This document shows positions 1 through 40,203 of a DNA stretch of 40,297 nt, piece after piece. A program made the position numbers and the translations under genes. The notes beneath the pieces are model-generated. The model searched no databases and was not told the DNA's origin. It saw nothing but the letters and a program-made list of their open reading frames with translations. This stretch comes from a virus, in IMG/VR virus record IMGVR_UViG_3300022204_000007, positions 1 to 40,297 of that record; one strand, written 5' to 3'. Positions within the stretch are counted from its first letter, which is position 1. Every line of letters begins with the position of its first letter.

Positions 1-25
1 CCCACCCTTCCCCCCCCCCTAAGCA
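1..25. other. C-rich tract at left end
   Basis: The window opens with a C-rich stretch that includes ten consecutive C at 10-19. Together with the C-rich right end (40271-40297) it would form one polypyrimidine tract of about 50 nt if the molecule is circular. The opposite strand then carries several G-runs able to form a G-quadruplex. It lies in the divergent region between the two gene arms, so it could be an assembly break, a packaging or end site, or part of an origin; the sequence alone does not decide. Confidence 0.5.
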
Positions 26-46
26 TTCCCAGCGAGCGAAAAGGGC

Positions 47-80
47 TAGACCCAGGCCGCGCATAGGCTATGCTGGGGGT
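47..80 (+). promoter_or_regulatory. Candidate promoter of the left operon, with palindrome over the -10
   Basis: TAGACC at 47-52 and TATGCT at 69-74 are separated by 16 nt. The -10 lies inside a near-perfect palindrome GCATAGGCTATGC (61-73), which could be an operator. The same -35-like hexamer TAGACC recurs before the 1665 gene at 1598-1603. A hairpin begins at 81, about where transcription would start. Confidence 0.4.
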
Positions 81-96
81 GCCCGGTGGAACGGGC
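81..96 (+). promoter_or_regulatory. 5'-end hairpin with GGA loop
   Basis: GCCCG-GTGGAA-CGGGC: a 5-bp perfect stem with a six-base loop containing GGA. It starts six nt after the candidate -10, so it would sit at the very 5' end of the mRNA, and it is followed directly by the Shine-Dalgarno GAGGAG at 98-103. It is one member of a family found in all leaders of this genome. Confidence 0.5.
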
Positions 97-107
97 TGAG
101 GAGCACC

Positions 108-263
108 GTGGTTCGACTCTACCCGCTGGCTGTGCTCACTCCTCGCCGCCAGCGAGGATCCACCCCGCCCCGGACGGGGAGAGGCAGAAGGGCCCGACTG
201 CCGCACCGGGGGTGTGCGGCTTCCATCTGTGTTGCCGCGTGGATGCGGCTGAGGAGGTCCTGA
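108..263 (+). CDS. Possible small Arg-rich protein, 51 aa (uncertain)
   Basis: A GTG at 108 is preceded by GAGGAG with a 4-nt spacer (CACC), exactly the ribosome site used by the gene at 1930. The reading frame ends in TGA at 261-263, overlapping the ATPase ATG as TGATG, the coupling style of this genome. The 51-aa product is rich in Arg and Pro and has no recognisable domain. It contains the hairpins at 200-220 and 234-249, so the region may instead be an untranslated leader. Composition resembles a shadow frame, which keeps confidence low. Confidence 0.35.
   Translation: MVRLYPLAVLTPRRQRGSTPPRTGRGRRARLPHRGCAASICVAAWMRLRRS
200..220 (+). repeat. Leader hairpin, copy 1 of a repeat
   Basis: A 7-bp stem (GCCGCAC / GTGCGGC) closes a G-rich loop. 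The same hairpin with its flank GGCCCGAC recurs at 2730-2761, after the gene ending at 2722. Both copies lie in leaders upstream of a GGA-loop hairpin and a start codon. Neither is followed by a T-run, so neither is a classical intrinsic terminator. Confidence 0.55.
234..249 (+). promoter_or_regulatory. GGA-loop hairpin before the ATPase start
   Basis: GCCGCG-TGGA-TGCGGC: a 6-bp stem, with a G.U closing pair, around a UGGA tetraloop, ending just before GAGGAGG and the ATG at 263. The tetraloop is the same as that of the 3781-3796 hairpin although the stem sequence is quite different. Confidence 0.5.
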
Positions 264-1267
264 TGGGATTCGTGATTGCGCCGGCCACGAAGGACGGCGC
301 CAAGCTGCGCTTCCTGCTGTCCGGCCCGCCGGGCAGCGGGAAGACGTACAGCCTGCTGTCAATGACCGAGGCTCCCGGCTTCGGCCGCCGAGTAGTGATC
401 GACAGCGAGCACGGAAGCGCCAGCAAATACGCCGACCTGTTCAGCTTCGACACCCTGCAGCTCCCCGACCCACACCCCGCCACGTACGTGCAAGCGATCC
501 ACGCCTGCGAGGACGCGGGCTACGACACCATCGTGGTGGACGGCCTCACGCACGCCTGGCAGGCGTGCCTCGAGCTGGTGGACGCCTGGGCGCACAGCCA
601 CAAGGGCGACTCGCACGGAGCCTGGCGAGACGTCAGCCCGCTCTGGCGAGACCTCCTCGACACCATCTTGCGGTCGCCGGCGCACGTCATGTGCTCGGCG
701 CGCGCGAAGACTGAGACGGTGCGCGAGGAGTACGAGGACCGGGGCCGCACGAAGACTCGAATCATCCAGCTCGGGCTGGCGTCGATCCTGCGGGACGGCG
801 CAGAGCACGAATTCGACGTCGCCCTGATGCTCGACGGGGACCACGTCGCCGAGGTGCGCAAGAGCAGATGCCGTGAGCTCGTCCAGCCGGTGCCCATGCC
901 GGGCGCCGAGTTGGGGGCAATGCTGCTGGCGTGGGTCACGAACAACACGCCGCCCCGCACCTGGGAGACGGACGGGCCATCGTTCGTCGCCGCACTGGTT
1001 GGGCTCGTGCCAGACAGCGTGGATCTGGCCGAGGCCGGCGGCGTCGCCGAGCGGGCGCTGGTCTCGCTGCTCCATAGCATGCAACGAGGGGCGCCCAGCA
1101 CGATGCGGCCCGAGCAGCGCGACGGACTGCTTCACTGGCTGGGCGCGGCCGGCAAGGCGAGGTGGGACGCCGCGGTGGCGGCAGAGGTGCGGCGCCTCGG
1201 GCCGCCAGACGAGGACCCCAACAACGGCGACGAGACGTGCGGCGACAGCGACCCCGCAGACCAGTGA
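263..1267 (+). CDS. Sak4-like RecA-fold ATPase (phage recombination/replication NTPase)
   Basis: The 334-aa protein has a Walker A GPPGSGKT at residues 21-28 and a Walker B TIVVDG at about 89-94, and the overall pattern of phage AAA/Sak4-type nucleotide-binding proteins: short N-terminus, P-loop, a 'VIDSEHGSA' segment and a later 'MCSARAKTE' segment. Such proteins work with single-strand annealing or exonuclease partners in phage recombination; here a YqaJ-type nuclease lies at 6566-7312. ATG 263 was chosen because GAGGAGG lies 5 nt upstream; an in-frame extension to 86 would cover leader hairpins. The C-terminal ~90 residues, acidic at the end, are not recognised. It overlaps the next gene as TGATG. 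Confidence 0.85.
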   Translation: MGFVIAPATKDGAKLRFLLSGPPGSGKTYSLLSMTEAPGFGRRVVIDSEHGSASKYADLFSFDTLQLPDPHPATYVQAIHACEDAGYDTIVVDGLTHAWQACLELVDAWAHSHKGDSHGAWRDVSPLWRDLLDTILRSPAHVMCSARAKTETVREEYEDRGRTKTRIIQLGLASILRDGAEHEFDVALMLDGDHVAEVRKSRCRELVQPVPMPGAELGAMLLAWVTNNTPPRTWETDGPSFVAALVGLVPDSVDLAEAGGVAERALVSLLHSMQRGAPSTMRPEQRDGLLHWLGAAGKARWDAAVAAEVRRLGPPDEDPNNGDETCGDSDPADQ

Positions 1268-1461
1268 TGGGCACGCCTGAACCACGCTCGCGCTTCTACC
1301 CGCAGCCGTGCCTCTCTGAGTACTGCGGGCGGGGCGTCTGCCCTCGCAGCTGCGAGCACCTCGCCGAGCTGCTCGACTTCAAGCGGTGGCTGCGGGCCAC
1401 CAGGGCGAAGCGGCCCGATCCTATCTACTGCCCCACCTTCTGGGAGCGCGGCGACCTCTAG
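1267..1461 (+). CDS. Small Cys-rich protein, 64 aa
   Basis: ATG at 1267 overlaps the ATPase stop (TGATG), so translation is probably coupled. The 64-aa product has five Cys (CLSEYCGRGVCPRSC near residues 16-30, plus a Cys in YCPTFW near the C-terminus) and one His, a pattern that could bind zinc. I do not recognise the family. Its position directly after the Sak4-like ATPase suggests a role in the same early or recombination module, which is inference only. GC at third codon positions is high, as in neighbouring genes. Confidence 0.65.
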   Translation: MGTPEPRSRFYPQPCLSEYCGRGVCPRSCEHLAELLDFKRWLRATRAKRPDPIYCPTFWERGDL

Positions 1462-1546
1462 CCCGCGCCCGCGCCGGCCCTGGCCCGCCCCTCCAACACG
1501 CCCTCACGCACGTCGTAAGGCTCGCATGAAATTGTGGGCCTAGAGC

Positions 1547-1586
1547 CCCAGCCCAAACCGGCATCACCGGGCCAGTTGTTTTTTTT
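1547..1586 (+). terminator. Possible intrinsic terminator after the ATPase operon
   Basis: A GC-rich stretch that can pair only weakly (CCGG-CATCA-CCGG, with flanking GCCC/GGGC) is followed by GTTG and then eight T at 1579-1586. Such a T-run is striking in this GC-rich genome. The stem is short, so this may also be just an AT-rich promoter upstream region. Confidence 0.4.
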
Positions 1587-1597
1587 GCATAAAATAC

Positions 1598-1630
1598 TAG
1601 ACCCCATTACGCTGGGGCCTTATAAGGGAT
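1598..1630 (+). promoter_or_regulatory. Candidate promoter of the 1665 operon with palindromic -10
   Basis: TAGACC (1598-1603), a 17-nt spacer and TATAAG (1621-1626). The -10 lies in the perfect palindrome CCTTATAAGG (1618-1627), and the spacer holds a 5-bp inverted repeat CCCCA / TGGGG (1602-1617). The arrangement suggests a repressor or activator site over the promoter. The rest of the gap from 1462 holds the T-run described separately and nothing else I recognise. Confidence 0.5.
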
Positions 1631-1650
1631 GTGCAGGTTGGATCCTGCAC
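1631..1650 (+). promoter_or_regulatory. 5'-end hairpin with GGA loop
   Basis: GTGCAGG-TTGGAT-CCTGCAC: a perfect 7-bp stem with the loop UUGGAU, starting four nt after the -10. It is followed by TTGAGGAGG and the ATG at 1665. Stem sequence is unrelated to the other leader hairpins, but the GGA loop and its position are kept. Confidence 0.6.
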
Positions 1651-1664
1651 TTGAGGAGGACGCG

Positions 1665-1919
1665 ATGAACACCTGTGAGACTACTGGCCAGCCCATTGAG
1701 CAAAAGGGTGGGCGCGGGCGCCCGCGCCGCTTCGCCAACCCCGAGGCCCAGCGCCTCGCCGCCATCCTGGCCGAGGCCGGCGACCTCATCCTGGCCCTGG
1801 GCCAGGATGACGGGTTCACCGTCGAGGCCCGTCGCGCCCTGCGGCGCCGCCTCAACGAGCTGACGAACCTCGCCCCGCTGTCCCTGACCACCAAGGCGGC
1901 CATCGCCGCGCGCAAGTAG
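1665..1919 (+). CDS. Small CxxTGxPI / GRP-motif protein, 84 aa
   Basis: ATG 1665 follows a strong GAGGAGG. The protein begins MNTCETTGQPIE, then has RGRPRRF and an Arg/Leu-rich helical C-terminal half (RRALRRRLNEL). It is clearly related to the 90-aa protein at 35440-35712 on the other strand: both share C-x-x-T-G-x-P-I, GRP, 'A[KQ]RL', and a final 'A.RRRL.EL..LA' segment. The C..TG.PI...GRP pattern resembles small nucleic-acid-associated or zinc-binding motifs, but this copy keeps only one Cys. Function unknown. Confidence 0.7.
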   Translation: MNTCETTGQPIEQKGGRGRPRRFANPEAQRLAAILAEAGDLILALGQDDGFTVEARRALRRRLNELTNLAPLSLTTKAAIAARK

Positions 1920-1929
1920 GAGGAGCACC

Positions 1930-2220
1930 ATGGGCGCTGACACTTTCTTGACCAGGTCGCGCGGGCGCAACGTGGCCGAGGCGTTCCACGCCGCCGTCGA
2001 GCGGGCGCGCTACGAGGACGGCCACGCCGGGTACACGGGGACGATCGCGGAGAAGTCCTCATGGACCGTGATTCAGCCCGCGGCGGGCGAGTCCCCCGAG
2101 GATTGCGCGAACCGGCTGCTGGACGACGACGACCGGCGCATCGCCGACAAGTGGGGGCCTGCGGGCGCCATCAAGGTGGGCGACGGCGACTGGCTGTTCT
2201 TCGGCTGGGCGTCCTCGTAG
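1930..2220 (+). CDS. Conserved-looking small phage protein, 96 aa
   Basis: ATG 1930 follows GGAGGAG with a 4-nt CACC spacer, 10 nt after the previous stop. The protein is acidic, with 'GHAGYTGTIAEK' in the middle and 'DKWGPAGAI...FFGWASS' at the end, a pattern I associate with small uncharacterised phage and plasmid proteins. No catalytic motif, membrane segment or Cys cluster is visible apart from one Cys near residue 59. Its stop codon (TAG 2218-2220) immediately precedes the structured leader of the next gene. Confidence 0.7.
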   Translation: MGADTFLTRSRGRNVAEAFHAAVERARYEDGHAGYTGTIAEKSSWTVIQPAAGESPEDCANRLLDDDDRRIADKWGPAGAIKVGDGDWLFFGWASS

Positions 2221-2227
2221 GGAGGAT

Positions 2228-2341
2228 GGGGGCGGCCGCCCCCTCTGCCGCCTGCACCCCAAGGCGGCAGAGGAGACGGCCGGCGCCACGCCGGGCCGCA
2301 CACCGGGCCAGGGATGGCCCAGCACAGAGGAGACCGACAAC
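2228..2341 (+). ncRNA. Structured mRNA leader, copy 1 (upstream of the 2342 gene)
   Basis: In order: a 16-bp palindrome with CGGCCG at its centre (2228-2243); a 10-bp hairpin with arms 2243-2252 and 2263-2272 (arm CTCTGCCGCC); a hairpin 2277-2298 with arms CGGCC/GGCCG and GGC/GCC; a hairpin 2305-2320 (GGGCCA-GGGA-TGGCCC); then AGAGGAGAC and the ATG at 2342. The same architecture recurs at 3704-3811 with compensatory changes, which is good evidence for a folded RNA. There is no promoter in the gap, so it acts within a longer transcript. Role (translation control, processing, attenuation) unknown. Confidence 0.7.
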
Positions 2342-2722
2342 ATGGGCCGCAAGTACGACCAGCAGGACCCGCACCCCCCAGCCCCCGCCATCTGCCACCT
2401 GCGGTGGCGCCAGCGCCGCAGCTCGACCGGTGCGGCCGTCCAGGTCAGCGACACCGGCCGCCCGGTCTGCTACGAGGCGCACGCCCCGCATGGAGCTACC
2501 CTGCGGGTCTACGCCCCCGCCGAGTGGGACGGGACCACCTACACCTACCGCAGCTCGCTTAGGACCGGGTGGCAGTGTGTCGTCCTGCTGGGCGACGAGG
2601 AGTACCGCTCCACCTGGTGGAACTGCGCGGCGCACGCGATGCTTTGGGCCGAGGAGGTCGCCCGGCTCCCTGGGCGCCACACCTGGACCAGCCAGAGCGA
2701 GGACGAGGAGCTGTTCGGCTGA
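2342..2722 (+). CDS. Hypothetical protein, 126 aa
   Basis: ATG 2342 lies 10 nt after AGAGGAG, at the end of structured leader copy 1. The protein is rich in Trp and Tyr, has no membrane segment, and includes 'ICHLRWRQRRSSTGAAVQV' and 'TWWNCAAHAMLWAEEVARLPG'; the last part looks like an amphipathic helix. I do not recognise a family. Sharing a leader RNA with the DUF932-like gene at 3812 suggests the two are controlled together. The repeat hairpin at 2738-2758 follows its stop. Confidence 0.6.
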   Translation: MGRKYDQQDPHPPAPAICHLRWRQRRSSTGAAVQVSDTGRPVCYEAHAPHGATLRVYAPAEWDGTTYTYRSSLRTGWQCVVLLGDEEYRSTWWNCAAHAMLWAEEVARLPGRHTWTSQSEDEELFG

Positions 2723-2737
2723 GGAGCCCGGCCCGAC

Positions 2738-2758
2738 GCCGCACCGGGGGTGTGCGGC
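2738..2758 (+). repeat. Leader hairpin, copy 2 of a repeat
   Basis: Same 7-bp stem and loop as the hairpin at 200-220, with the same GGCCCGAC flank on its left (2730-2737). It lies 15 nt after the stop of the 126-aa gene and before a new promoter. It could help end the upstream transcript, although no T-run follows. Confidence 0.55.
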
Positions 2759-2769
2759 CTCCCCGCCCC

Positions 2770-2803
2770 TGAAAAAGTAGTTCCCTGAAATGAAAAGTAG
2801 TCC
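2770..2803 (+). repeat. Direct repeats upstream of a promoter (possible operator)
   Basis: TGAAAAAGTAGTTCC (2770-2784) and TGAAAAGTAGTCC (2791-2803) are imperfect direct repeats about 21 bp apart, two helical turns, so a protein could bind both from one face. They are A-rich in a GC-rich genome and the second runs into the -35 region of the next promoter, as an UP element or an operator would. Confidence 0.45.
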
Positions 2804-2833
2804 ACTGCGGCGCTTTGGGTGCTAATATCCTGA
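2798..2833 (+). promoter_or_regulatory. Candidate promoter of the 2885 operon
   Basis: An extended -10 (TG at 2820-2821, then TAATAT at 2823-2828) is the clearest part. TAGTCC at 2798-2803 resembles the TAGACC boxes of two other promoters, but the spacing of 19 nt is long. A hairpin follows at 2834. Confidence 0.4.
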
Positions 2834-2865
2834 GTGTGCAATGGAGCACGCGGCCAGGGATGGCC
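2834..2865 (+). promoter_or_regulatory. Two tandem GGA-loop hairpins in the 2885 leader
   Basis: GTGTGC-AATGGA-GCACGC (2834-2851, 6 bp with one G.U) is followed without a gap by GGCCA-GGGA-TGGCC (2852-2865, 5 bp). Both loops contain GGA. The first starts five nt after the -10; the second precedes the start ATG at 2885 by 19 nt. The second matches 40183-40196 on the other strand base for base. Confidence 0.6.
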
Positions 2866-2884
2866 GAGCAACGAGGAGCCCGAC

Positions 2885-3169
2885 ATGACCACGACCACGA
2901 CCATCATCAGCGACATGACCTTCCTCCGCACCTGGAAGGAGGGCGACGTCAAATCCGCGACCAGCCGCCTCGCCACGAGCCTGGCCCTGCTGGAGGCCGA
3001 GGTGGCCTGGGCCAGCGCCGACCTGGAGGCCGGGCGCGACTACGCCGGAGCCTGCCTCGTCGGTCGGGTCCAGGGGGTCGAGGCCGACCGCGCCTCCCTG
3101 GCGGTCGCCCGCGCCGAGCTTCGCACGGTCCTGTTCGCCATCGAGCGCATCGAGGAGTCCTCCAAGTGA
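2885..3169 (+). CDS. Hypothetical helical protein, 94 aa
   Basis: ATG 2885 lies downstream of ACGAGGAG and of the two GGA-loop hairpins; an in-frame extension to 2834 would run through those hairpins and was rejected. After a Thr-rich start the product is almost wholly helical in character, with long Ala/Glu/Leu runs and probable coiled coil (residues ~20-94). There are no Cys clusters or membrane segments. It ends in GTGA, overlapping the next gene by 4 nt, so it heads a coupled operon of small proteins. Function unknown. Confidence 0.6.
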   Translation: MTTTTTIISDMTFLRTWKEGDVKSATSRLATSLALLEAEVAWASADLEAGRDYAGACLVGRVQGVEADRASLAVARAELRTVLFAIERIEESSK

Positions 3170-3366
3170 GCGCGCAGCAGCAGAAGCCCACCAAGGTCGC
3201 CCGAGGCCCCGTGAAGCCGGCGTGGTCTGGCTGGGAGTGTCAGGAGTGCGGGCACCGCTTCCGCACCGTGCGCGCGGCCGAGCGGGCCTCCATGGACGGC
3301 TGCCCGAAGTGCGGAGGGGTGGACGTGGACCTGTCCGCGACGGCCCCGCTCTGGTGGACGCTGTGA
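3166..3366 (+). CDS. Zinc-ribbon protein, 66 aa
   Basis: GTG 3166 overlaps the previous stop as GTGA. A basic N-terminus is followed by a two-knuckle zinc ribbon: CQEC near residues 25-28 and CPKC near 47-50, about 20 residues apart, with a hydrophobic C-terminus (APLWWTL). Such small ribbons usually bind nucleic acid or a polymerase or nuclease partner. The downstream gene is also Cys-rich and overlaps it as GTGA, so the two may act together, though that is inference. Confidence 0.65.
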   Translation: MSAQQQKPTKVARGPVKPAWSGWECQECGHRFRTVRAAERASMDGCPKCGGVDVDLSATAPLWWTL

Positions 3367-3701
3367 GCGGGTCGCACGGCATCGCGGCCGGCGCCCTCTG
3401 CACCGACGACGGCGGTGGCACCTGCACCGTCTGCGGGGTCGCCATGACGCTGTGCGACTCCTGCGGCCGCGTCGGCTACCACTGCACCTCGTGCAGGTAC
3501 AACGACGAGGGCCCCACCGTCCTCGCCCGCGCCGGCTTGAGCCTGGGCGAGGAGGACTGGTCGCCGACGGCCTGGCAGGTGCGCCTCGCCAGCGGCAAGG
3601 TCGCCTACGACATCAGCGACCGGGAGTCGGCGGATCTCGCGGAGGCCCTCAACCGCTGGGGCGTGACCTGGACCGCCATCGAGACGGCGGGGGACTGGTA
3701 G
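3363..3701 (+). CDS. Multi-CxxC zinc-binding protein, 112 aa
   Basis: GTG 3363 overlaps the previous stop. The N-terminal half has C near residue 13, then CTVC, CDSC and CTSC pairs within about 26 residues plus a His (GYHCTSC), enough to bind two zinc ions. The C-terminal half (SPTAWQVRLASGKVAYDISDRESADLAEALNRWGV, residues ~70-105) looks like a separate alpha/beta domain. I do not recognise the family. The TAG stop is directly followed by structured leader copy 2. Confidence 0.6.
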   Translation: MSGSHGIAAGALCTDDGGGTCTVCGVAMTLCDSCGRVGYHCTSCRYNDEGPTVLARAGLSLGEEDWSPTAWQVRLASGKVAYDISDRESADLAEALNRWGVTWTAIETAGDW

Positions 3702-3703
3702 GA

Positions 3704-3811
3704 GGGGGCGGCCGCCCCCTCTGCTGCTCGCGCGCCGGGCAGCAGAGGAGACGGCCGGCAGCTTCGCCAGGCCGCACACCGGGCCATGGATGGCCCACAG
3801 AGGAGACGAAC
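3704..3811 (+). ncRNA. Structured mRNA leader, copy 2 (upstream of the 3812 gene)
   Basis: Same order of elements as 2228-2341: palindrome with CGGCCG centre (3704-3719); hairpin with arms 3719-3727 and 3739-3747 (CTCTGCTGC / GCAGCAGAG); hairpin 3752-3774 (CGGCC/GGCCG and GGC/GCC, loop AGCTTC); hairpin 3781-3796 (GGGCCA-TGGA-TGGCCC); then AGAGGAGAC and ATG 3812. Against copy 1 the first stem shows a C-G to U-A exchange on both arms, while loops differ freely. As in copy 1 it begins right after a TAG stop. Confidence 0.7.
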
Positions 3812-4888
3812 ATGGTCGACCTTCACACCGCGCGCAACATCCTGGGGCGCCGCATCGAGCAGGGCCGGTCTGAGCAGACCGCCGTCATCCGGCGGATGCT
3901 CGACCAGCAGCCGGCCGACATGATGGTGCAGCGCCGCAGCCTCCGCTTCGGCGCGGAGGGCGGGCGCCTGACCACCAACGTCGATGGGGCGCCGCGCCTC
4001 CACCGCCACGCGCTGGCCCAGCTCGCCAGCGATAGCGGCATCATCACCCCCACCACCGTCACCAAGGCGGCCGAGGTGGGCCCGGTGGCCACCGAGGCCC
4101 TGGTCGGCTTCCTCAACCGCGTGTTCGGGGAGGCCCTCCCCGAACAGCGCCGCCTGGTCCGCAGCGTGGACGGCGAGGTCCGCGGCTACCTGAGCGACCG
4201 CTACCGGCGCATCGACTCGGCGCCCATCCTGGAGGCGTTCATCAGCGGGGCCCAGGCGCGCGGCGCCGTGCCCATCACCGGCCGCGCGAGCGACATCCGC
4301 TGGGGGTTCACCTGGGCCCGCTCGGAGCTGCTGGAGGTCAACGGGGAGGCCCTCATCATCGGCCTCCGCATCAGCAACTCGGACTTCGGGGCCGGGGCGC
4401 TGGATCTGCGCGGCTTCGTGGAGCGGCTCATCTGCGCCAACGGGATGACGACCGAGTCCGCGCTGCGCCAGGTCCACCTCGGCCGGCGCCTGAGCGACGA
4501 CATCGCCTGGAGCGACCGCACCATGCAGCTCGACACCGAGGCGCACGCCAGCGCGGTCGGGGACGCCGTGCACCACCTGCTGGACGACCAGCGGATCGCA
4601 CAGCAGCTCGCCACCATCGAGGACGCCGCGCAGGACGAGATCGACGGCGAGCGCGAGGTCAAGCGCCTGGTCGCCGGCCAGAAGCTCGGGCGGGAGGAGG
4701 GGGCGGCCGTGCGCGAGATCTACCGCTCGGCCGACGTCTCCAAGGTCCCGGCGGGCAACACCCGCTGGCGCCTGGCGAACGCCATCAGCCTGCTGGCCGG
4801 GCAGGCCCCCGACGCGGACAAGCGCGGGGACCTCGAGCAGCTCGCCGGCAACGTGCTCCAGGGTGCCACCCAGGCGACGGCCCGATGA
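3812..4888 (+). CDS. DUF932-like phage/plasmid protein, 358 aa
   Basis: ATG 3812 follows AGAGGAG at the end of leader copy 2. The middle region carries the pattern of DUF932-type phage and plasmid proteins: 'GYLSDRYRRIDSAPILE' (~residues 118-134), 'GLRISNSDFGAGAL' (~180-195) and 'ERLICANGMTTES' (~200-215). The last third is Gln/Glu/Arg-rich and helical. The biochemical role of this family is not established; members occur in mobile elements and phages. It is the largest + strand gene and ends in ATGA, overlapping the next gene. Family assignment is from remembered motifs, not a search. Confidence 0.7.
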   Translation: MVDLHTARNILGRRIEQGRSEQTAVIRRMLDQQPADMMVQRRSLRFGAEGGRLTTNVDGAPRLHRHALAQLASDSGIITPTTVTKAAEVGPVATEALVGFLNRVFGEALPEQRRLVRSVDGEVRGYLSDRYRRIDSAPILEAFISGAQARGAVPITGRASDIRWGFTWARSELLEVNGEALIIGLRISNSDFGAGALDLRGFVERLICANGMTTESALRQVHLGRRLSDDIAWSDRTMQLDTEAHASAVGDAVHHLLDDQRIAQQLATIEDAAQDEIDGEREVKRLVAGQKLGREEGAAVREIYRSADVSKVPAGNTRWRLANAISLLAGQAPDADKRGDLEQLAGNVLQGATQATAR

Positions 4889-5151
4889 CCACCAGGGTCG
4901 TGCTCGTCGGGCGCAACGGCGTGGCGCGCGCCTGGTCCCGGCTGACGTTCGACGCCTGCCGGGCACTTAGCGAGGCGCGGCGAGCAGGGCTCGACGGCGA
5001 CCTCCGCGGGCACGTTCAGCTCGCGCTGGCGGACGAGGCCTGGGCCTCCATCCCCGAGCTGGCGTCGGCGGCGGCGACCTTCCTTCACCTCCTCCTCCGC
5101 GAGGTCGAGGTGGAGCGCGACAAGCGCGCCGCCGCCCTCGCCGAGCCCTGA
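4885..5151 (+). CDS. Hypothetical small helical protein, 88 aa
   Basis: ATG 4885 overlaps the DUF932-like stop as ATGA, so it is probably translated from the same message. The 88-aa product is Ala/Arg/Leu-rich, begins with a short beta-like stretch (TTRVVLVGRNGVARAW) and ends in a helical, charged tail (LLREVEVERDKRAAALAEP). One Cys, no motif. Its TGA overlaps an ATG (TGATG at 5149-5153) that could open the possible gene 5151-5498. Confidence 0.6.
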   Translation: MTTRVVLVGRNGVARAWSRLTFDACRALSEARRAGLDGDLRGHVQLALADEAWASIPELASAAATFLHLLLREVEVERDKRAAALAEP

Positions 5152-5498
5152 TGTTCAACGGCTGCACCGCGGGCAGCAGCGCCACCCCAGGGCGCACAAC
5201 CTGGGTCCCGCCTGGGGGGGCGTGCCCCAGGCCCGGCCGTGCCCGTGGGGCGGCTGGTGCTCCTCGCCTGGACGTGGAGGTGACCAGGGGCGGCCCGCTG
5301 CCAGAGTGCGGGGACCGACCGGTGGCGGGACCACCGTGGTGCGGGGATCCCCGGTGGGCCCGCACGAGCGCCAGCCGGGGGTCGGACGCAGGGCGTCTGC
5401 GCGAGCGGGTGGGAGGCCCGCTACTTCCCCACCGTAGTGCTCTGGTGATATTGTGGCCACGCCGGGTGGATCCCCGGCAGAGGAGGAGGACTCGATGA
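5151..5498 (+). CDS. Possible gene, 115 aa (uncertain)
   Basis: This 343-nt gap between clear genes holds one open frame. ATG 5151 overlaps the previous stop (TGATG) and the TGA at 5496-5498 overlaps the next ATG (ATGA), the coupling expected of a real gene here. Third positions are mostly G or C for the first ~80 codons. Against it: the product is Pro/Arg/Gly-rich with no recognisable fold, and its 3' end contains a candidate promoter and the GGA-loop hairpin of the next gene. The stretch also holds a 7-bp hairpin CCTGGGG / CCCCAGG near 5214-5234, so it may be a non-coding control region. Confidence 0.35.
   Translation: MFNGCTAGSSATPGRTTWVPPGGACPRPGRARGAAGAPRLDVEVTRGGPLPECGDRPVAGPPWCGDPRWARTSASRGSDAGRLRERVGGPLLPHRSALVILWPRRVDPRQRRRTR
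5446..5460 (+). promoter_or_regulatory. Candidate extended -10 promoter of the 5495 operon
   Basis: TG-A-TATTGT at 5446-5454 fits an extended -10; no good -35 is visible, the nearest being TTCCCC at 5425-5430. The 8-bp palindrome GTGGCCAC (5453-5460) follows directly. The hairpin at 5461 begins six nt after the -10, the same spacing as in the other leaders. Confidence 0.4.
5461..5478 (+). promoter_or_regulatory. 5'-end hairpin with GGA loop
   Basis: GCCGGG-TGGATC-CCCGGC: a perfect 6-bp stem with GGA in the loop, followed at once by AGAGGAGGAGG and the ATG at 5495. It has the same position and loop motif as the hairpins at 81, 1631 and 2834, with an unrelated stem. Confidence 0.6.
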
Positions 5499-5791
5499 CC
5501 GAGAGCAACAACCCGGACGGCTGGAGGGTGACCGCGTCGCCCACCGGCCCACTGCCGCCCAGTACCATCCGGCCCCACGAGACGTTCGTCCTGCTGGCGT
5601 CCTCGGTGGAGGACGGCCCGGTCCCGGTGGACGTCGTGATCTGCCGCAACAGCTCGCTGGCGAACGCCATCGTCGGCGAGTACTACCCAGACCACCCCAC
5701 GCGCATCGTGCGGCGCCGCCTCAGCGTCCTGGGCGTGAGCTGCTACGTGTGGGTGCTCATCGTCTACCAGCAGCGGGCGGTGGTGCCATGA
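5495..5791 (+). CDS. Hypothetical protein, 98 aa
   Basis: ATG 5495 follows a very strong GAGGAGGAGG. The product starts with a polar stretch (TESNNPDGWRV) and continues as an alternating hydrophobic, probably beta-rich domain (ETFVLLASSV, PVDVVICRN, YVWVLIVYQQ). No known motif is visible. It ends in ATGA overlapping the next gene and heads the coupled operon leading to the YqaJ-type exonuclease, so a recombination-related or host-takeover role is possible but not shown. Confidence 0.65.
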   Translation: MTESNNPDGWRVTASPTGPLPPSTIRPHETFVLLASSVEDGPVPVDVVICRNSSLANAIVGEYYPDHPTRIVRRRLSVLGVSCYVWVLIVYQQRAVVP

Positions 5792-6165
5792 CGATCCTGG
5801 CGAGCGTCCCGATGGAGCGGGCCGTCCCCATCACGTTCGTCTTGAAGGACGACCACCTCCGCTACGCCATCACGGGCCCAGGCAGCCGGCCTGGGTTGGC
5901 GATGTGCGAGCGCGTGAACCTGCTCCGGGGCTCGCGCCGCGCCGCGTGGGTCGGGGACAGGCTGGAACTGGTCAGGACCGGCGAGACTAGGGAGATCAGC
6001 GAGGATGCGTGGGTGGTCTACCAGGGGCCGTCGAGGTGCGCCGAGGACTGCCTCGTGGCATCCGCGTCGTGCGTGCTGCCCGGCGGGCACCTCGGCCACC
6101 ACTTCGGCTTCGCCGTCGCGCCCGGCGGCGGCTGGGTCGGTCTGCTCTGGAGGTTCGAGACGTGA
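5788..6165 (+). CDS. Hypothetical protein, 125 aa
   Basis: ATG 5788 overlaps the previous stop as ATGA. The product is beta-rich in appearance: 'VPITFVLKDDHLRYAITGPG', 'WVGDRLELVRTGETREI' and a C-terminal part with Cys and His (CAEDCLVASASCVLPGGHLGHHFG, residues ~85-108) that could bind a metal. It ends 'GGWVGLLWRFET' and overlaps the next gene as GTGA. I do not recognise a family. Confidence 0.6.
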   Translation: MTILASVPMERAVPITFVLKDDHLRYAITGPGSRPGLAMCERVNLLRGSRRAAWVGDRLELVRTGETREISEDAWVVYQGPSRCAEDCLVASASCVLPGGHLGHHFGFAVAPGGGWVGLLWRFET

Positions 6166-6569
6166 ACCCCAACACCAAGCCCGGCCGCATCATGTTCGGC
6201 ATCCTGACCGACTCCATGGTCGAGCTGGTGGGCCCCACGCTGCGCGACTACCTGCGGCCCCTGACGTTCGCCTCCCTGCACACCAGGCTGGTCGATGCCG
6301 CCGCGGAGGGCCCGCAAGCGGTCTGCGACGAGCTGGCCGCGTTCGCCGCCGACGCCCAGCGTGAGTGGGGCAGGTGGGCGAGCCACGCGCTCGGCGCGCT
6401 CGGCGTCGTGGACGCCGAGCTGGAGGGCCTCGCCCTGGGGCTGTTCGGGGCGCCCGCGCTGACGCCAGTCCTCATGCCAGACGGCCAGGAGGACCGGCGC
6501 TCCGAGCAGCGCCGCATAGGGCAGGCAGCCGGGGCACGCCTGGCCGCCGAGGACTGGTGGCGCTCGTGA
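6162..6569 (+). CDS. Hypothetical protein, 135 aa
   Basis: GTG 6162 overlaps the previous TGA (GTGA). The product is mostly helical, with an Ala-rich middle (LVDAAAEGPQAVCDELAAFAADAQREWGRW) and a charged end that includes 'DGQEDRRSEQRRIGQAAG'. No motif or membrane segment stands out. It lies directly upstream of, and is coupled to, the YqaJ-type exonuclease, where phages often carry a single-strand annealing or accessory protein; this one does not visibly match such families. Confidence 0.6.
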   Translation: MNPNTKPGRIMFGILTDSMVELVGPTLRDYLRPLTFASLHTRLVDAAAEGPQAVCDELAAFAADAQREWGRWASHALGALGVVDAELEGLALGLFGAPALTPVLMPDGQEDRRSEQRRIGQAAGARLAAEDWWRS

Positions 6570-7312
6570 GTCTCGACAGGCGCCGCGCCGAGTGCGTCAC
6601 GGGCACCGACATCGGCCGCATCCTGGGCCTGTGCCCAGCGTCGTGGGGCGGGCCCGATCAGGTGCTGGCCGAGAAGATCGGGCTGCGCCACCAGCTTGAC
6701 GAGGAGCCCGGCGAGCTGGGGGTCGGGTCGGCAGCAGAGGAGTGGATCGCCGCGAGGTGGTCCCTGGAGACCGGCCACACCATCCGGCCGGCCGGCTTCG
6801 AGCTGCACCCCAGCGTCGCGCACGTCGGCGGGACGCCCGACTTCCGCGTGGTGTCTGGCCCGCTGCTCGTCCGCGGCGCGGTCGTGGAGGTGAAGACGAA
6901 CCTCCGGGGCGTCCGCGTCCTGCCTCCAGACGGGACCATCGCTACCTCCGAGTCGCTACCCGGCCGGCGCCACAACCTCGCGCAGGTGCTCTGGTACGCG
7001 GGGATGGACGAGGACCTCGTGAACGCCGAGCCGCGCTACTGCGGCGCGCTGGTGGTCGCGAGCTACCCGGCAGCCATCGCGAAGTGGTGGCCCAGCATGG
7101 ACGCCCGCGAGCGTGAGGTGGTGGCCCGGCTGGTGGGCCGCCTAAGCGTGCTGCGCTGGTATCCGGTGCCGCATGACCCAGGCGCCATCGCGTGGCTGTA
7201 CGCGCGCGGCCTGGAGTGGTGGGCGCGCTACATCGACGGCGCGGCTGCCGCGACGAGCGACCAGGCGTGCGACACCTCACCGCACGTCGCCCGCACCACT
7301 ACCGTCAGGTAG
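6566..7312 (+). CDS. YqaJ-type viral recombinase / exonuclease
   Basis: The 248-aa product has the PD-(D/E)XK plan of YqaJ and lambda-exonuclease-like phage enzymes: 'TGTDIGRILGLCP' (residues 12-24), 'GSAAEEWIA' with acidic residues near 58-59, 'GGTPDF' with Asp92, and 'VVEVKT' with Glu108 and Lys110, then 'HNLAQVLWYAGM'. Such enzymes digest 5' strands to start single-strand annealing recombination. GTG 6566 was chosen from its GTGA overlap with the previous stop. It probably works with the Sak4-like ATPase at 263. It is the last + strand gene, and its 3' end overlaps the opposing lipoprotein gene by 85 bp. Confidence 0.8.
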   Translation: MSLDRRRAECVTGTDIGRILGLCPASWGGPDQVLAEKIGLRHQLDEEPGELGVGSAAEEWIAARWSLETGHTIRPAGFELHPSVAHVGGTPDFRVVSGPLLVRGAVVEVKTNLRGVRVLPPDGTIATSESLPGRRHNLAQVLWYAGMDEDLVNAEPRYCGALVVASYPAAIAKWWPSMDAREREVVARLVGRLSVLRWYPVPHDPGAIAWLYARGLEWWARYIDGAAAATSDQACDTSPHVARTTTVR

Positions 7313-7788
7313 TGGCGCCCAGCGTCTGGCCCGAGCAGCTCCACGGCCGGCGCATCCACCCTGCACGCGTCTCGCTCGCACACCCACGGCCAGGTGCGCT
7401 CGTGGCAACTGGAGCCGCGGCAGACGTGCGCCACGATGCGCGTCCTGTCGGCCGGGAGGTGCCAGTTGCTCGCGAGGCTGAACCGCATGCGCGTCCAGGC
7501 GCGCACGGCCGGCGGCAGCGGGGAGGCGCCCACCCGCATCTCGGCGATGCCGTACTCGCCGACGAGGTCCCAGGGGCGGTCGGCATGGGCTGCCTGGGAC
7601 ACCTGAAGCGGGGCGAACCTCTCGCCTGCCCGCGCCTCCAGCACGTCGAGCACGGCCTGGGCTCGCGACACCTCGGCAGATAGGGCCTGGACGGCTTGAG
7701 CCGGCCGGGATGGTTCGGCAGCCCTGGGGCACCCGCACGCAGCCATCACGGCCGCACACGTCACCAGGGCCGCCCTCCCGGTCATCAT
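7228..7788 (-). CDS. Lipoprotein, last gene of the lysis cassette (possible outer spanin)
   Basis: ATG 7788 overlaps the previous stop (ATGA). The N-terminus is a short signal peptide ending in a lipobox-like 'AVMAACGC', so the mature protein would be anchored in a membrane through Cys. A helical, probably coiled-coil stretch (QAVQALSAEVSRAQAVLDVLEARAG) follows, then a domain with four Cys. Being a lipoprotein right after a single-pass membrane protein and an amidase fits an outer spanin of a Gram-negative phage, although 186 aa is long for one. It overlaps the convergent + strand exonuclease gene by 85 bp with no terminator visible between them. Confidence 0.6.
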   Translation of the reverse strand: MMTGRAALVTCAAVMAACGCPRAAEPSRPAQAVQALSAEVSRAQAVLDVLEARAGERFAPLQVSQAAHADRPWDLVGEYGIAEMRVGASPLPPAVRAWTRMRFSLASNWHLPADRTRIVAHVCRGSSCHERTWPWVCERDACRVDAPAVELLGPDAGRHYLTVVVRATCGEVSHAWSLVAAAAPSM

Positions 7789-32351: not shown

Positions 32352-33902
32352 CTAGCCCTCGACGGCGTGCGCCACGCGGGCGCGGATGATGTCGCAGTAG
32401 GCCGGCTCGCGCTCGATGCCGATGCAGGCGAAGCCCTCGCGCTCGCAGGCGACGAGCGTGGTGCCGCTGCCGGCGAACGGCTCAAGGACCACGCCGCCCG
32501 GCGGAGTCACAAGGCGGACCAGCCAGCGCATGAGGCGCACCGGCTTCACCGTGGCATGTGTGTTGGTCCGGGCAGACTCCGTGCGCCCGCCGTCGCGCAG
32601 GGCGTCGGCGCCCTGCGCGACGGCGGGCGCCAGCCCATCACACCCAGCGTCTCGCTCTGACCGAGCGGGCTTCGGGCATGCGTAAACGTTCGCCGGGAAA
32701 CGACCTATCGGCGAAGCCACCATAGCCGGCGGCGGCGCGTCATCGTCTTGCGGCCCCGGCCACGACGCGTCGCCATACGCGATCCTGCACCCGTCGATGT
32801 TCAGCGCCCCGGTGCCGTGCGCAAGCACCGTCTCAACGACCGTGCCGATCAGCGGCTTGCGAGCCAGGATGGCGGGCTCCTGCGCTGGCTTCAGCCCGGT
32901 ACCCCAGCCGTCCCACTGCTTGGCGTCGTCAGTGACAGGATCGCCCTTCGGCGTCCGGGTGTAATTCGGCCCTCCCATGCTTCCGTTGTTGCTCACGACA
33001 GGTCCAGCCTGGCCCCTAAGGTGTCCCTCGACTGCGTCCATGGCCTTCGCCACGTCGAGGCTCTTCGGAAAGCCGTTGTAGTAGAGCCATGAGATGGTGT
33101 CTCTGATCTCGAAGCCGGCATCCTCAAGCGCAACGGCGAGGCGGTGCACCGTGCGCGTGCCGCCAAAGGCGACAACGTGCCCGCCAGGCTTGAGCACGCG
33201 GAGCGCCTCGGCGGCGAACTCCGGCCCAGGCGGCAGCGCGTCCCACGCCTTGCCCATGAAGCCGATGCCGTAGGGCGGGTCGGTCACAATGGCGTCGATG
33301 CTGCCGTCCGCGATCGTCCGCATGACCTCGACGCAGTCGCCGCAGGTCAGCGCGTGGCGCCCCAGCGGCACCACCTCGCCGGGCTGCGTGACGGGCTCGG
33401 CGGGTGGCGGGGGGACGTCATCGTCGCCGGGGCGGTCGTCGTGCGGAGCGGGTGGCGCGGGGGGCTCTGCGAGGGTCAGCGAGAGGGATGCCTCGTCGAA
33501 GCCGAGGGCCAGCGGCGCGAAGTCGGTCACGAGGTCGCCCAGCTCCACGCGCAGCGCCGGCGCGTTCCACCCGCCCCGGTCGTACGTGGCGTTGTCGGCG
33601 AGGGCGTAGGCGCGGGCCTCGCGCGCGGAGCCGGCGAACGGCACCGCAGCGATGGTGGTCCACCCGAGGCGGCGCGCAGCGAGGAGGGTGCCGTTGCCCG
33701 CGATGACCACGCGGTCGGCGGGCCGGTATACCACCGGCTTCTGCTGCCCGTGGCGCTCGAGGGACGCTGCGACGGCGGCGACGGACGCCTCGGGGTGGGT
33801 GCGGAGGTTGGCGGGGTCGAGCTCGAGCGTGGCGACGTCGACGAGGAGCCCGTGGAGGGCGGTGGCCACGTGCGGCGCGGCGGGTGGGCGGCGCTTGCTC
33901 AT
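32352..33902 (-). CDS. ParB-like domain fused to a DNA methyltransferase (beta class)
   Basis: ATG 33902 overlaps the lipoprotein stop (ATGA); 516 aa. Residues ~15-110 form a ParB/Srx-like domain ('RTHPEASVAAVAASLERHGQ', 'VIAGNGTLLAARRLGW'). The methyltransferase has DPPY at 208-211 before the SAM-binding FAGSGTT at 476-482, the beta order, and the family's 'GWGTGLKPAQEPAILARKPL' and 'HGTGALNIDGCRI' segments. It would methylate adenine N6 or cytosine N4 and protect phage DNA from host restriction; target sequence not predictable. Its place in the packaging module may let it mark DNA late, near packaging. Confidence 0.85.
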   Translation of the reverse strand: MSKRRPPAAPHVATALHGLLVDVATLELDPANLRTHPEASVAAVAASLERHGQQKPVVYRPADRVVIAGNGTLLAARRLGWTTIAAVPFAGSAREARAYALADNATYDRGGWNAPALRVELGDLVTDFAPLALGFDEASLSLTLAEPPAPPAPHDDRPGDDDVPPPPAEPVTQPGEVVPLGRHALTCGDCVEVMRTIADGSIDAIVTDPPYGIGFMGKAWDALPPGPEFAAEALRVLKPGGHVVAFGGTRTVHRLAVALEDAGFEIRDTISWLYYNGFPKSLDVAKAMDAVEGHLRGQAGPVVSNNGSMGGPNYTRTPKGDPVTDDAKQWDGWGTGLKPAQEPAILARKPLIGTVVETVLAHGTGALNIDGCRIAYGDASWPGPQDDDAPPPAMVASPIGRFPANVYACPKPARSERDAGCDGLAPAVAQGADALRDGGRTESARTNTHATVKPVRLMRWLVRLVTPPGGVVLEPFAGSGTTLVACEREGFACIGIEREPAYCDIIRARVAHAVEG

Positions 33903-40171: not shown

Positions 40172-40182
40172 GGATCTCCTCC

Positions 40183-40196
40183 GGCCATCCCTGGCC
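40183..40196 (-). promoter_or_regulatory. GGA-loop hairpin before the replication genes
   Basis: On the - strand GGCCA-GGGA-TGGCC, identical to 2852-2865 on the + strand, ends directly before GGAGGAG and the ATG at 40171. The same motif thus opens operons in both arms. Confidence 0.6.
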
Positions 40197-40203
40197 AGCC
40201 AGC

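Follow-up and report, generated by a model that had tools for sequence, protein, structure and literature searches.

CsrA is among the most widespread global regulators of bacteria. Nuclear magnetic resonance work on RsmE with high-affinity RNAs revealed an ANGGAN hexaloop, of which the protein contacts the A and the GGA (PMC7652899; also PMC6028588), and the leader hairpins of the CsrA/RsmA/RsmE systems, such as those of glgC, hcnA and flhDC, are characterized by this hexaloop, by a C-G closing pair, by a place near the Shine-Dalgarno (SD) sequence and by paired sites (PMC7652899, PMC6028588). CsrA bridges sites 10-63 nt apart, and there are precedents for repression, as in glgC, and for protection of the 5' end, as in flhDC (PMC7652899). 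This paper describes nine hairpins with GGA in the loop in the leaders of a virus record (IMG/VR, IMGVR_UViG_3300022204_000007), whose 40,297 bases (G + C 72%) were analysed as a whole and are called the window hereafter. These hairpins are like those of glgC, hcnA and flhDC in the features listed above, but unlike them they belong to phage genes, are repeated before several successive genes of transcription units and are known here from sequence.

Loops of the AYGGAY type also occur in the Csr/Rsm sponge RNAs and in the candidate RNA TwoAYGGAY (RF01731; PMC4333381), but the window has single or tandem hairpins in the leaders of phage messenger RNAs (mRNAs) and no compact small RNA; the Rfam covariance models gave no match at the gathering threshold, and even at E<=10 positions 1-5600 matched none of the Csr-related families. 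In addition, 30 phages that encode CsrA are on record (PMC7366521), and phage-borne csrA was found by tblastn in 85 INPHARED records. The window phage would be like these in engaging with the Csr system, but would differ in having sites and no CsrA gene. A limited search of the open literature turned up no earlier account of sites of the CsrA type in the leaders of phages.

GGA-loop hairpins in the window

The nine hairpins of the initial annotation were all found in the sequence where it had placed them. A strict rule, that is, a hexaloop NNGGAN, a stem of at least 5 bp and an SD within 16 nt, retained seven of them: 81-96, 234-249, 1631-1650, 2305-2320, 2851-2866 and 3781-3796 on the plus strand and 40181-40198 on the minus strand. 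The remaining two, 2834-2851 (loop AATGGA) and 5461-5478 (loop TGGATC), also form genuine stems of 6 bp, with the GGA displaced by one base. Such hairpins before SDs are real and beyond chance. The annotation itself had proposed shuffled sequence as a check, and 300 dinucleotide shuffles gave a mean of 0.46 and a maximum of 4 strict cases against the 7 real ones, so the composition does not reproduce the excess. The Poisson probability of seven cases at this mean is 6e-7; because the leaders at 2301, 2847 and 3777 are copies of a single unit of about 39 nt, the independent strict cases number about 5, for which we estimate a probability of about 1e-4 at the same mean. Furthermore, GGA is the top trinucleotide among the adequately counted ones in hairpin loops before SDs (7/99 vs 0.7% overall; 8/198 vs 0.69% with a second definition), and its frequency as a hairpin loop is 7/99 near SDs but 5/1296 elsewhere (Fisher 4e-6). 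ANGGA is held by five of the nine loops, and the distance from the hairpin end to the SD is 0-10 nt. In RNAfold predictions, the hairpins belong to the minimum free energy structure or the centroid of their own leaders except for 81-96, which is displaced by an alternative fold in the minimum free energy structure of its 51-nt context.

The first hairpin on the plus strand, GCCCG-GTGGAA-CGGGC (81-96), lies 2 nt 5' of GAGGAG and upstream of a short leader reading frame starting with GTG at 108, and the second, GCCGC-GTGGAT-GCGGC (234-249), abuts the GAGGAGG of the AAA_24 ATPase gene (ATG 263). The frame 108-263 (51 codons, VVRLYPLAVLTPRR...) stops in TGATG on the AAA_24 start and holds the second hairpin in its 3' end; it is possibly a leader peptide with translational coupling to the AAA_24 gene. 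Farther downstream, GTGCAGG-TTGGAT-CCTGCAC (1631-1650) is located 5' of GAGGAGG and ATG 1665, and GCCGGG-TGGATC-CCCGGC (5461-5478) 5' of AGAGGAGGAGG and ATG 5495. The three copies of the leader unit lie between them: the first (2301-2339) consists of GGGCC-AGGGAT-GGCCC (2305-2320) and the SD AGAGGAGA, followed by ATG 2342; the second (2847-2885) of CGGCC-AGGGAT-GGCCG (2851-2866) and the SD CGAGGAG, followed by ATG 2885; and the third (3777-3815) of GGGCC-ATGGAT-GGCCC (3781-3796), which differs from the hairpin of the first solely in the N of ANGGA, and the SD AGAGGAGA, followed by ATG 3812. The second copy is preceded by GTGTGC-AATGGA-GCACGC (2834-2851), the upstream half of a tandem pair with 12 nt from GGA to GGA. 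On the minus strand, CTGGCC-AGGGAT-GGCCGG (40181-40198) abuts GGAGGAGA of the first gene of that strand (ATG 40170).

Other repeats were also observed in these leaders. The long leaders are duplicated at 2228-2284 and 3704-3759 on the plus strand, with the palindrome GGGGGCGGCCGCCCCC and a second hairpin in which CTCTGCCGCC..GGCGGCAGAG corresponds to CTCTGCTGC..GCAGCAGAG through compensatory changes; an SD-like AGAGGAGAC lies downstream. Moreover, GCCGCACCGGGGGTGTGCGGC, a 21-nt hairpin, is repeated exactly in the plus-strand leaders 200-224 and 2738-2762; it may resemble a terminator or be another regulatory element.

The early block of the plus strand (1 to ~9.6 kb) encodes the AAA_24 ATPase, a weak YqaJ-like nuclease and small proteins, and faces a long minus-strand block, in which a DnaC/IstB-like gene comes first (from 40170) and which also carries the genes for terminase, portal, protease, capsid and tail. 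The claim that such hairpins open every leader is too broad: it holds for the five plus-strand gaps longer than 100 nt that lie within the first 5.5 kb, for the first leader and for the first minus-strand gene, but not for tightly packed or abutting genes or for those of the late region between about 38.4 and 9.6 kb, before which GGA hairpins are absent. A ParB-like domain fused to a DNA methyltransferase (32352-33902, minus strand) adjoins the large terminase gene, and C-rich runs on the plus strand at both contig ends (1-20 and 40265-40297) could represent either genuine termini or a repeat.

Recurrence of the loop in other phages

No relative of the window phage was found in INPHARED (megablast, tblastn) or in IMG/VR for a test of conservation, so recurrence of the hairpin was sought in unrelated phages, and scans of IMG/VR showed that dozens of these do retain the GGA loop before genes. 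Thus, GGCCANGGATGGCC followed by GAGGAG gave 15 stretches against 2 with the scrambled loop ANGAGT, GGGCC-NNGGAN-GGCCC with a start codon gave 81 against 9 for the scrambled NNGAGN, and GGGCCANGGATGGCCC with the SD GAGG gave 49 matches, mostly right before phage reading frames. In 76 non-redundant sites the loop consensus is ANGGAY, with A at position 1 in 62, any base at position 2 and T or C at position 6 in 65. L014 is a phage fragment with a portal related to those of Pelagibacter HTVC023P and Caulobacter GB2A; in it, five small genes that are nearly consecutive (6100-7320) are each preceded by GGGCCANGGATGGCCC or a close variant. One site, GGGCCAAGGAAGGCCC, precedes a gene at about 68.2 kb in the cultured Pseudomonas putida phage Lu11.

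Because a covariance model built from 16-nt hairpins chosen for their pairing would be circular, octamers of the form CAN-xyz-YG located 5' of SD-preceded frames in the motif-bearing phages were taken without prior selection on pairing, GGCC stems being dropped, and were counted as paired if flanked by at least 3 further pairs. CANGGAYG octamers were paired in 21 of 78 cases, as opposed to 84 of 1898 (4.4%) for the other trinucleotides (p 1e-10), and this effect is confined to loops with A as the first base, since with C, G or T it was not significant. The stems of the paired octamers are unlike one another (GTGTC, TTGC, CCGC, GGCAC, AGCAC, TCTC and GGAGTTC), so that differing stems around a constant loop, as noted in the initial annotation for the window, are also seen in motif-bearing phages. 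Tandem ANGGAY hairpins with differing stems occur in L025 (three in a row), L029, L035, L038, L042, L053, L059 and L063, and the hairpin is repeated in tandem in L125; the tandem spacing, counted from the sequences, is 12-20 nt, inside the distance that CsrA can bridge (PMC7652899). A Pseudoxanthomonas koreensis contig (L075) and the IMG/VR stretch L063 have in common the tandem TTGC-ATGGAT-GCAA and GGGCC-AAGGAT-GGCCC, preceding homologous predicted phage proteins (MATYSREEFVRQVLLELG / MATFERERLVRRTLMALG). Bacterial genomes (257 Gb) gave just 22 matches of the ANGGAT form, which, judged from their downstream frames, are mostly chance; of these, only L068 and L075 were used as evidence on hosts. 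The GGA hairpins are therefore part of a wider phage feature, beyond what was noticed in the window alone.

Candidate readers of the loop

The hairpins are probably cis-acting CsrA/RsmE-type sites in RNA: the loop, the hexaloop size, the tandem spacing and the closeness to the SD are all as expected of such sites. The putative reader is the CsrA of the host, because the phage encodes no CsrA. The GGA loop within an ANGGAN hexaloop, the position near or over the SD and a free stem with a kept loop, the last qualified by the favoured GGGCC stem and a negative scan with GCCGC, are all found here as in known sites. As for the spacing of at least 10 nt suited to a dimer, the pair at 2834/2851 is 12 nt apart. 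The loop GGA lies 9-14 nt from the SD GGA in seven of eight leaders, whereas at 40183 the distance is 5 or 8 nt; most of these loop-to-SD distances would suit a dimer, but the SD GGA on which they rest is not diagnostic. The resemblance to CsrA/RsmE sites proposed at the outset has thus been strengthened by ANGGA in the window loops, by the CANGGAYG hexaloop across phages and by the tandem sites. On the other hand, the suggestion that the phage has a regulator of its own found no support, as no CsrA domain was found in the window proteins; nor was any found in the 15 viral records of the first round, and in 48 motif-bearing viral records there was none above the Pfam cut-off and one sub-threshold match (E 1.9e-4).

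A dimer of host CsrA could bridge the GGA of the hairpin loop and that of the SD or, alternatively, could span two tandem hairpins, as at 2834-2866. Bound CsrA would keep the early mRNAs in a defined state depending on the free CsrA in the cell, with the SD covered as in glgC or the 5' end protected as in flhDC; the sequence would fit repression as well as protection, and CsrA has precedents for each.

The likeliest hosts, to judge from protein similarities, are large-genome Myxococcota. Relatives of the terminase were found in 1 of 284 Myxococcota genomes (G299) but in none of the 246 genomes searched from Planctomycetota or the 299 from the order of Pseudoxanthomonas. G299 (11.4 Mb) contains three prophage-like regions with matches to about 8 window proteins including structural ones (24-33% identity), and the closest phage relatives of the window AAA_24 protein include Myxococcus Mx8/Mx9 (42%). 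The residues L4, R6, V42 and R44 of Escherichia coli CsrA are RNA-binding, and all four are kept in the product of the csrA of G299. A host without CsrA would have undone the proposal; the best host guess does have the gene, as do two genomes with a phage-like match (Pseudoxanthomonas and Planctomycetaceae), but the assignment matters because csrA is present in only 39 of 96 sampled Myxococcota.

Several observations weigh against a CsrA-type reading. Besides this patchy occurrence of csrA and the indirect host assignment, the prophage regions of G299 that were examined show no such leaders, and no kin of the window phage turned up in the two databases to show that the hairpins are conserved. 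Four of the nine window loops are without the first A of ANGGA and have TGGA, which would make weaker sites, and a GGA inside an SD is trivial by itself. The expectation that csrA-carrying phages have the leaders failed in phi297, the only one checked. Finally, phages not selected for the motif gave a weak pairing effect (5/48 vs 5%, p 0.1), Lu11 had no significant general excess and the scan with the GCCGC stem had no A-first bias (23/69); because of these three results, the leader feature is limited to a subset of phages and the GGGCC stem is favoured; CsrA alone would not require this stem.

The strong preference for GGGCC, not demanded by CsrA, would suit the best surviving rival, namely that the loop is read by another RNA-binding protein of phage or host with a similar ANGGAY preference, and so would the failure to find CsrA in the window or above the cut-off in the 48 records. 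It is nevertheless unlikely, since the hairpins match CsrA/RsmE sites in loop consensus, hexaloop size, tandem spacing and nearness to the SD, and no common small protein was found for the role in a search that was not exhaustive. Less likely still is the alternative described as simpler in the initial annotation, that a hairpin at the 5' end or near the SD protects the mRNA by stabilising it, or insulates translation by leaving the SD accessible, and that its loop is incidental. The hairpins at 81, 1631, 2834 and 5461 lie shortly 3' of AT-rich possible -10 elements, for which no sigma-70 match was found, and could thus sit at the transcript end; a stabilising hairpin, however, needs neither GGA in the loop nor the A before and Y after it, and pairing exceeds chance only for A-first loops.

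That the hairpins are operators in DNA, or were copied along with a duplicated leader, and that the loop has no function in RNA, is improbable: the units at 2301, 2847 and 3777 are copies and GGCCANGGATGGCC is a near-palindrome, but the stems are wholly different while loop, strand and SD distance are kept, and an operator was rejected for these differing stems. A ribosome standby site, with the loop GGA pairing with the anti-SD UCC beside the adjoining SD, is the most improbable, as it leaves the first A and the variable second base unexplained and three pairs within a closed hexaloop would be weak. A GNRA tetraloop (AGGGAU, an A-U pair closing around GGGA) was also considered and was rejected, since any of A, C, G and T can stand second in the loop and C is frequent at position 6.

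Meaning for phage biology

If host CsrA reads the hairpins, phage expression would be tied post-transcriptionally to the carbon and growth state of the host, and the leader sequence would become a predictor of this coupling. Only tentatively can it be proposed that a broad range of unrelated phages constitute a viral Csr regulon: with no CsrA of their own, they would carry strong ANGGAY hairpins before early and virion genes, host CsrA would time or protect expression, and the mRNAs may jointly titrate CsrA, a sponge effect to be expected only if the leader mRNAs are abundant. In any case, the wide phage set yields short testable RNAs, one of them from the cultured Lu11, and suggests that many phages have linked their own genes to an RNA-binding regulator supplied by the host and absent from the phage genome.

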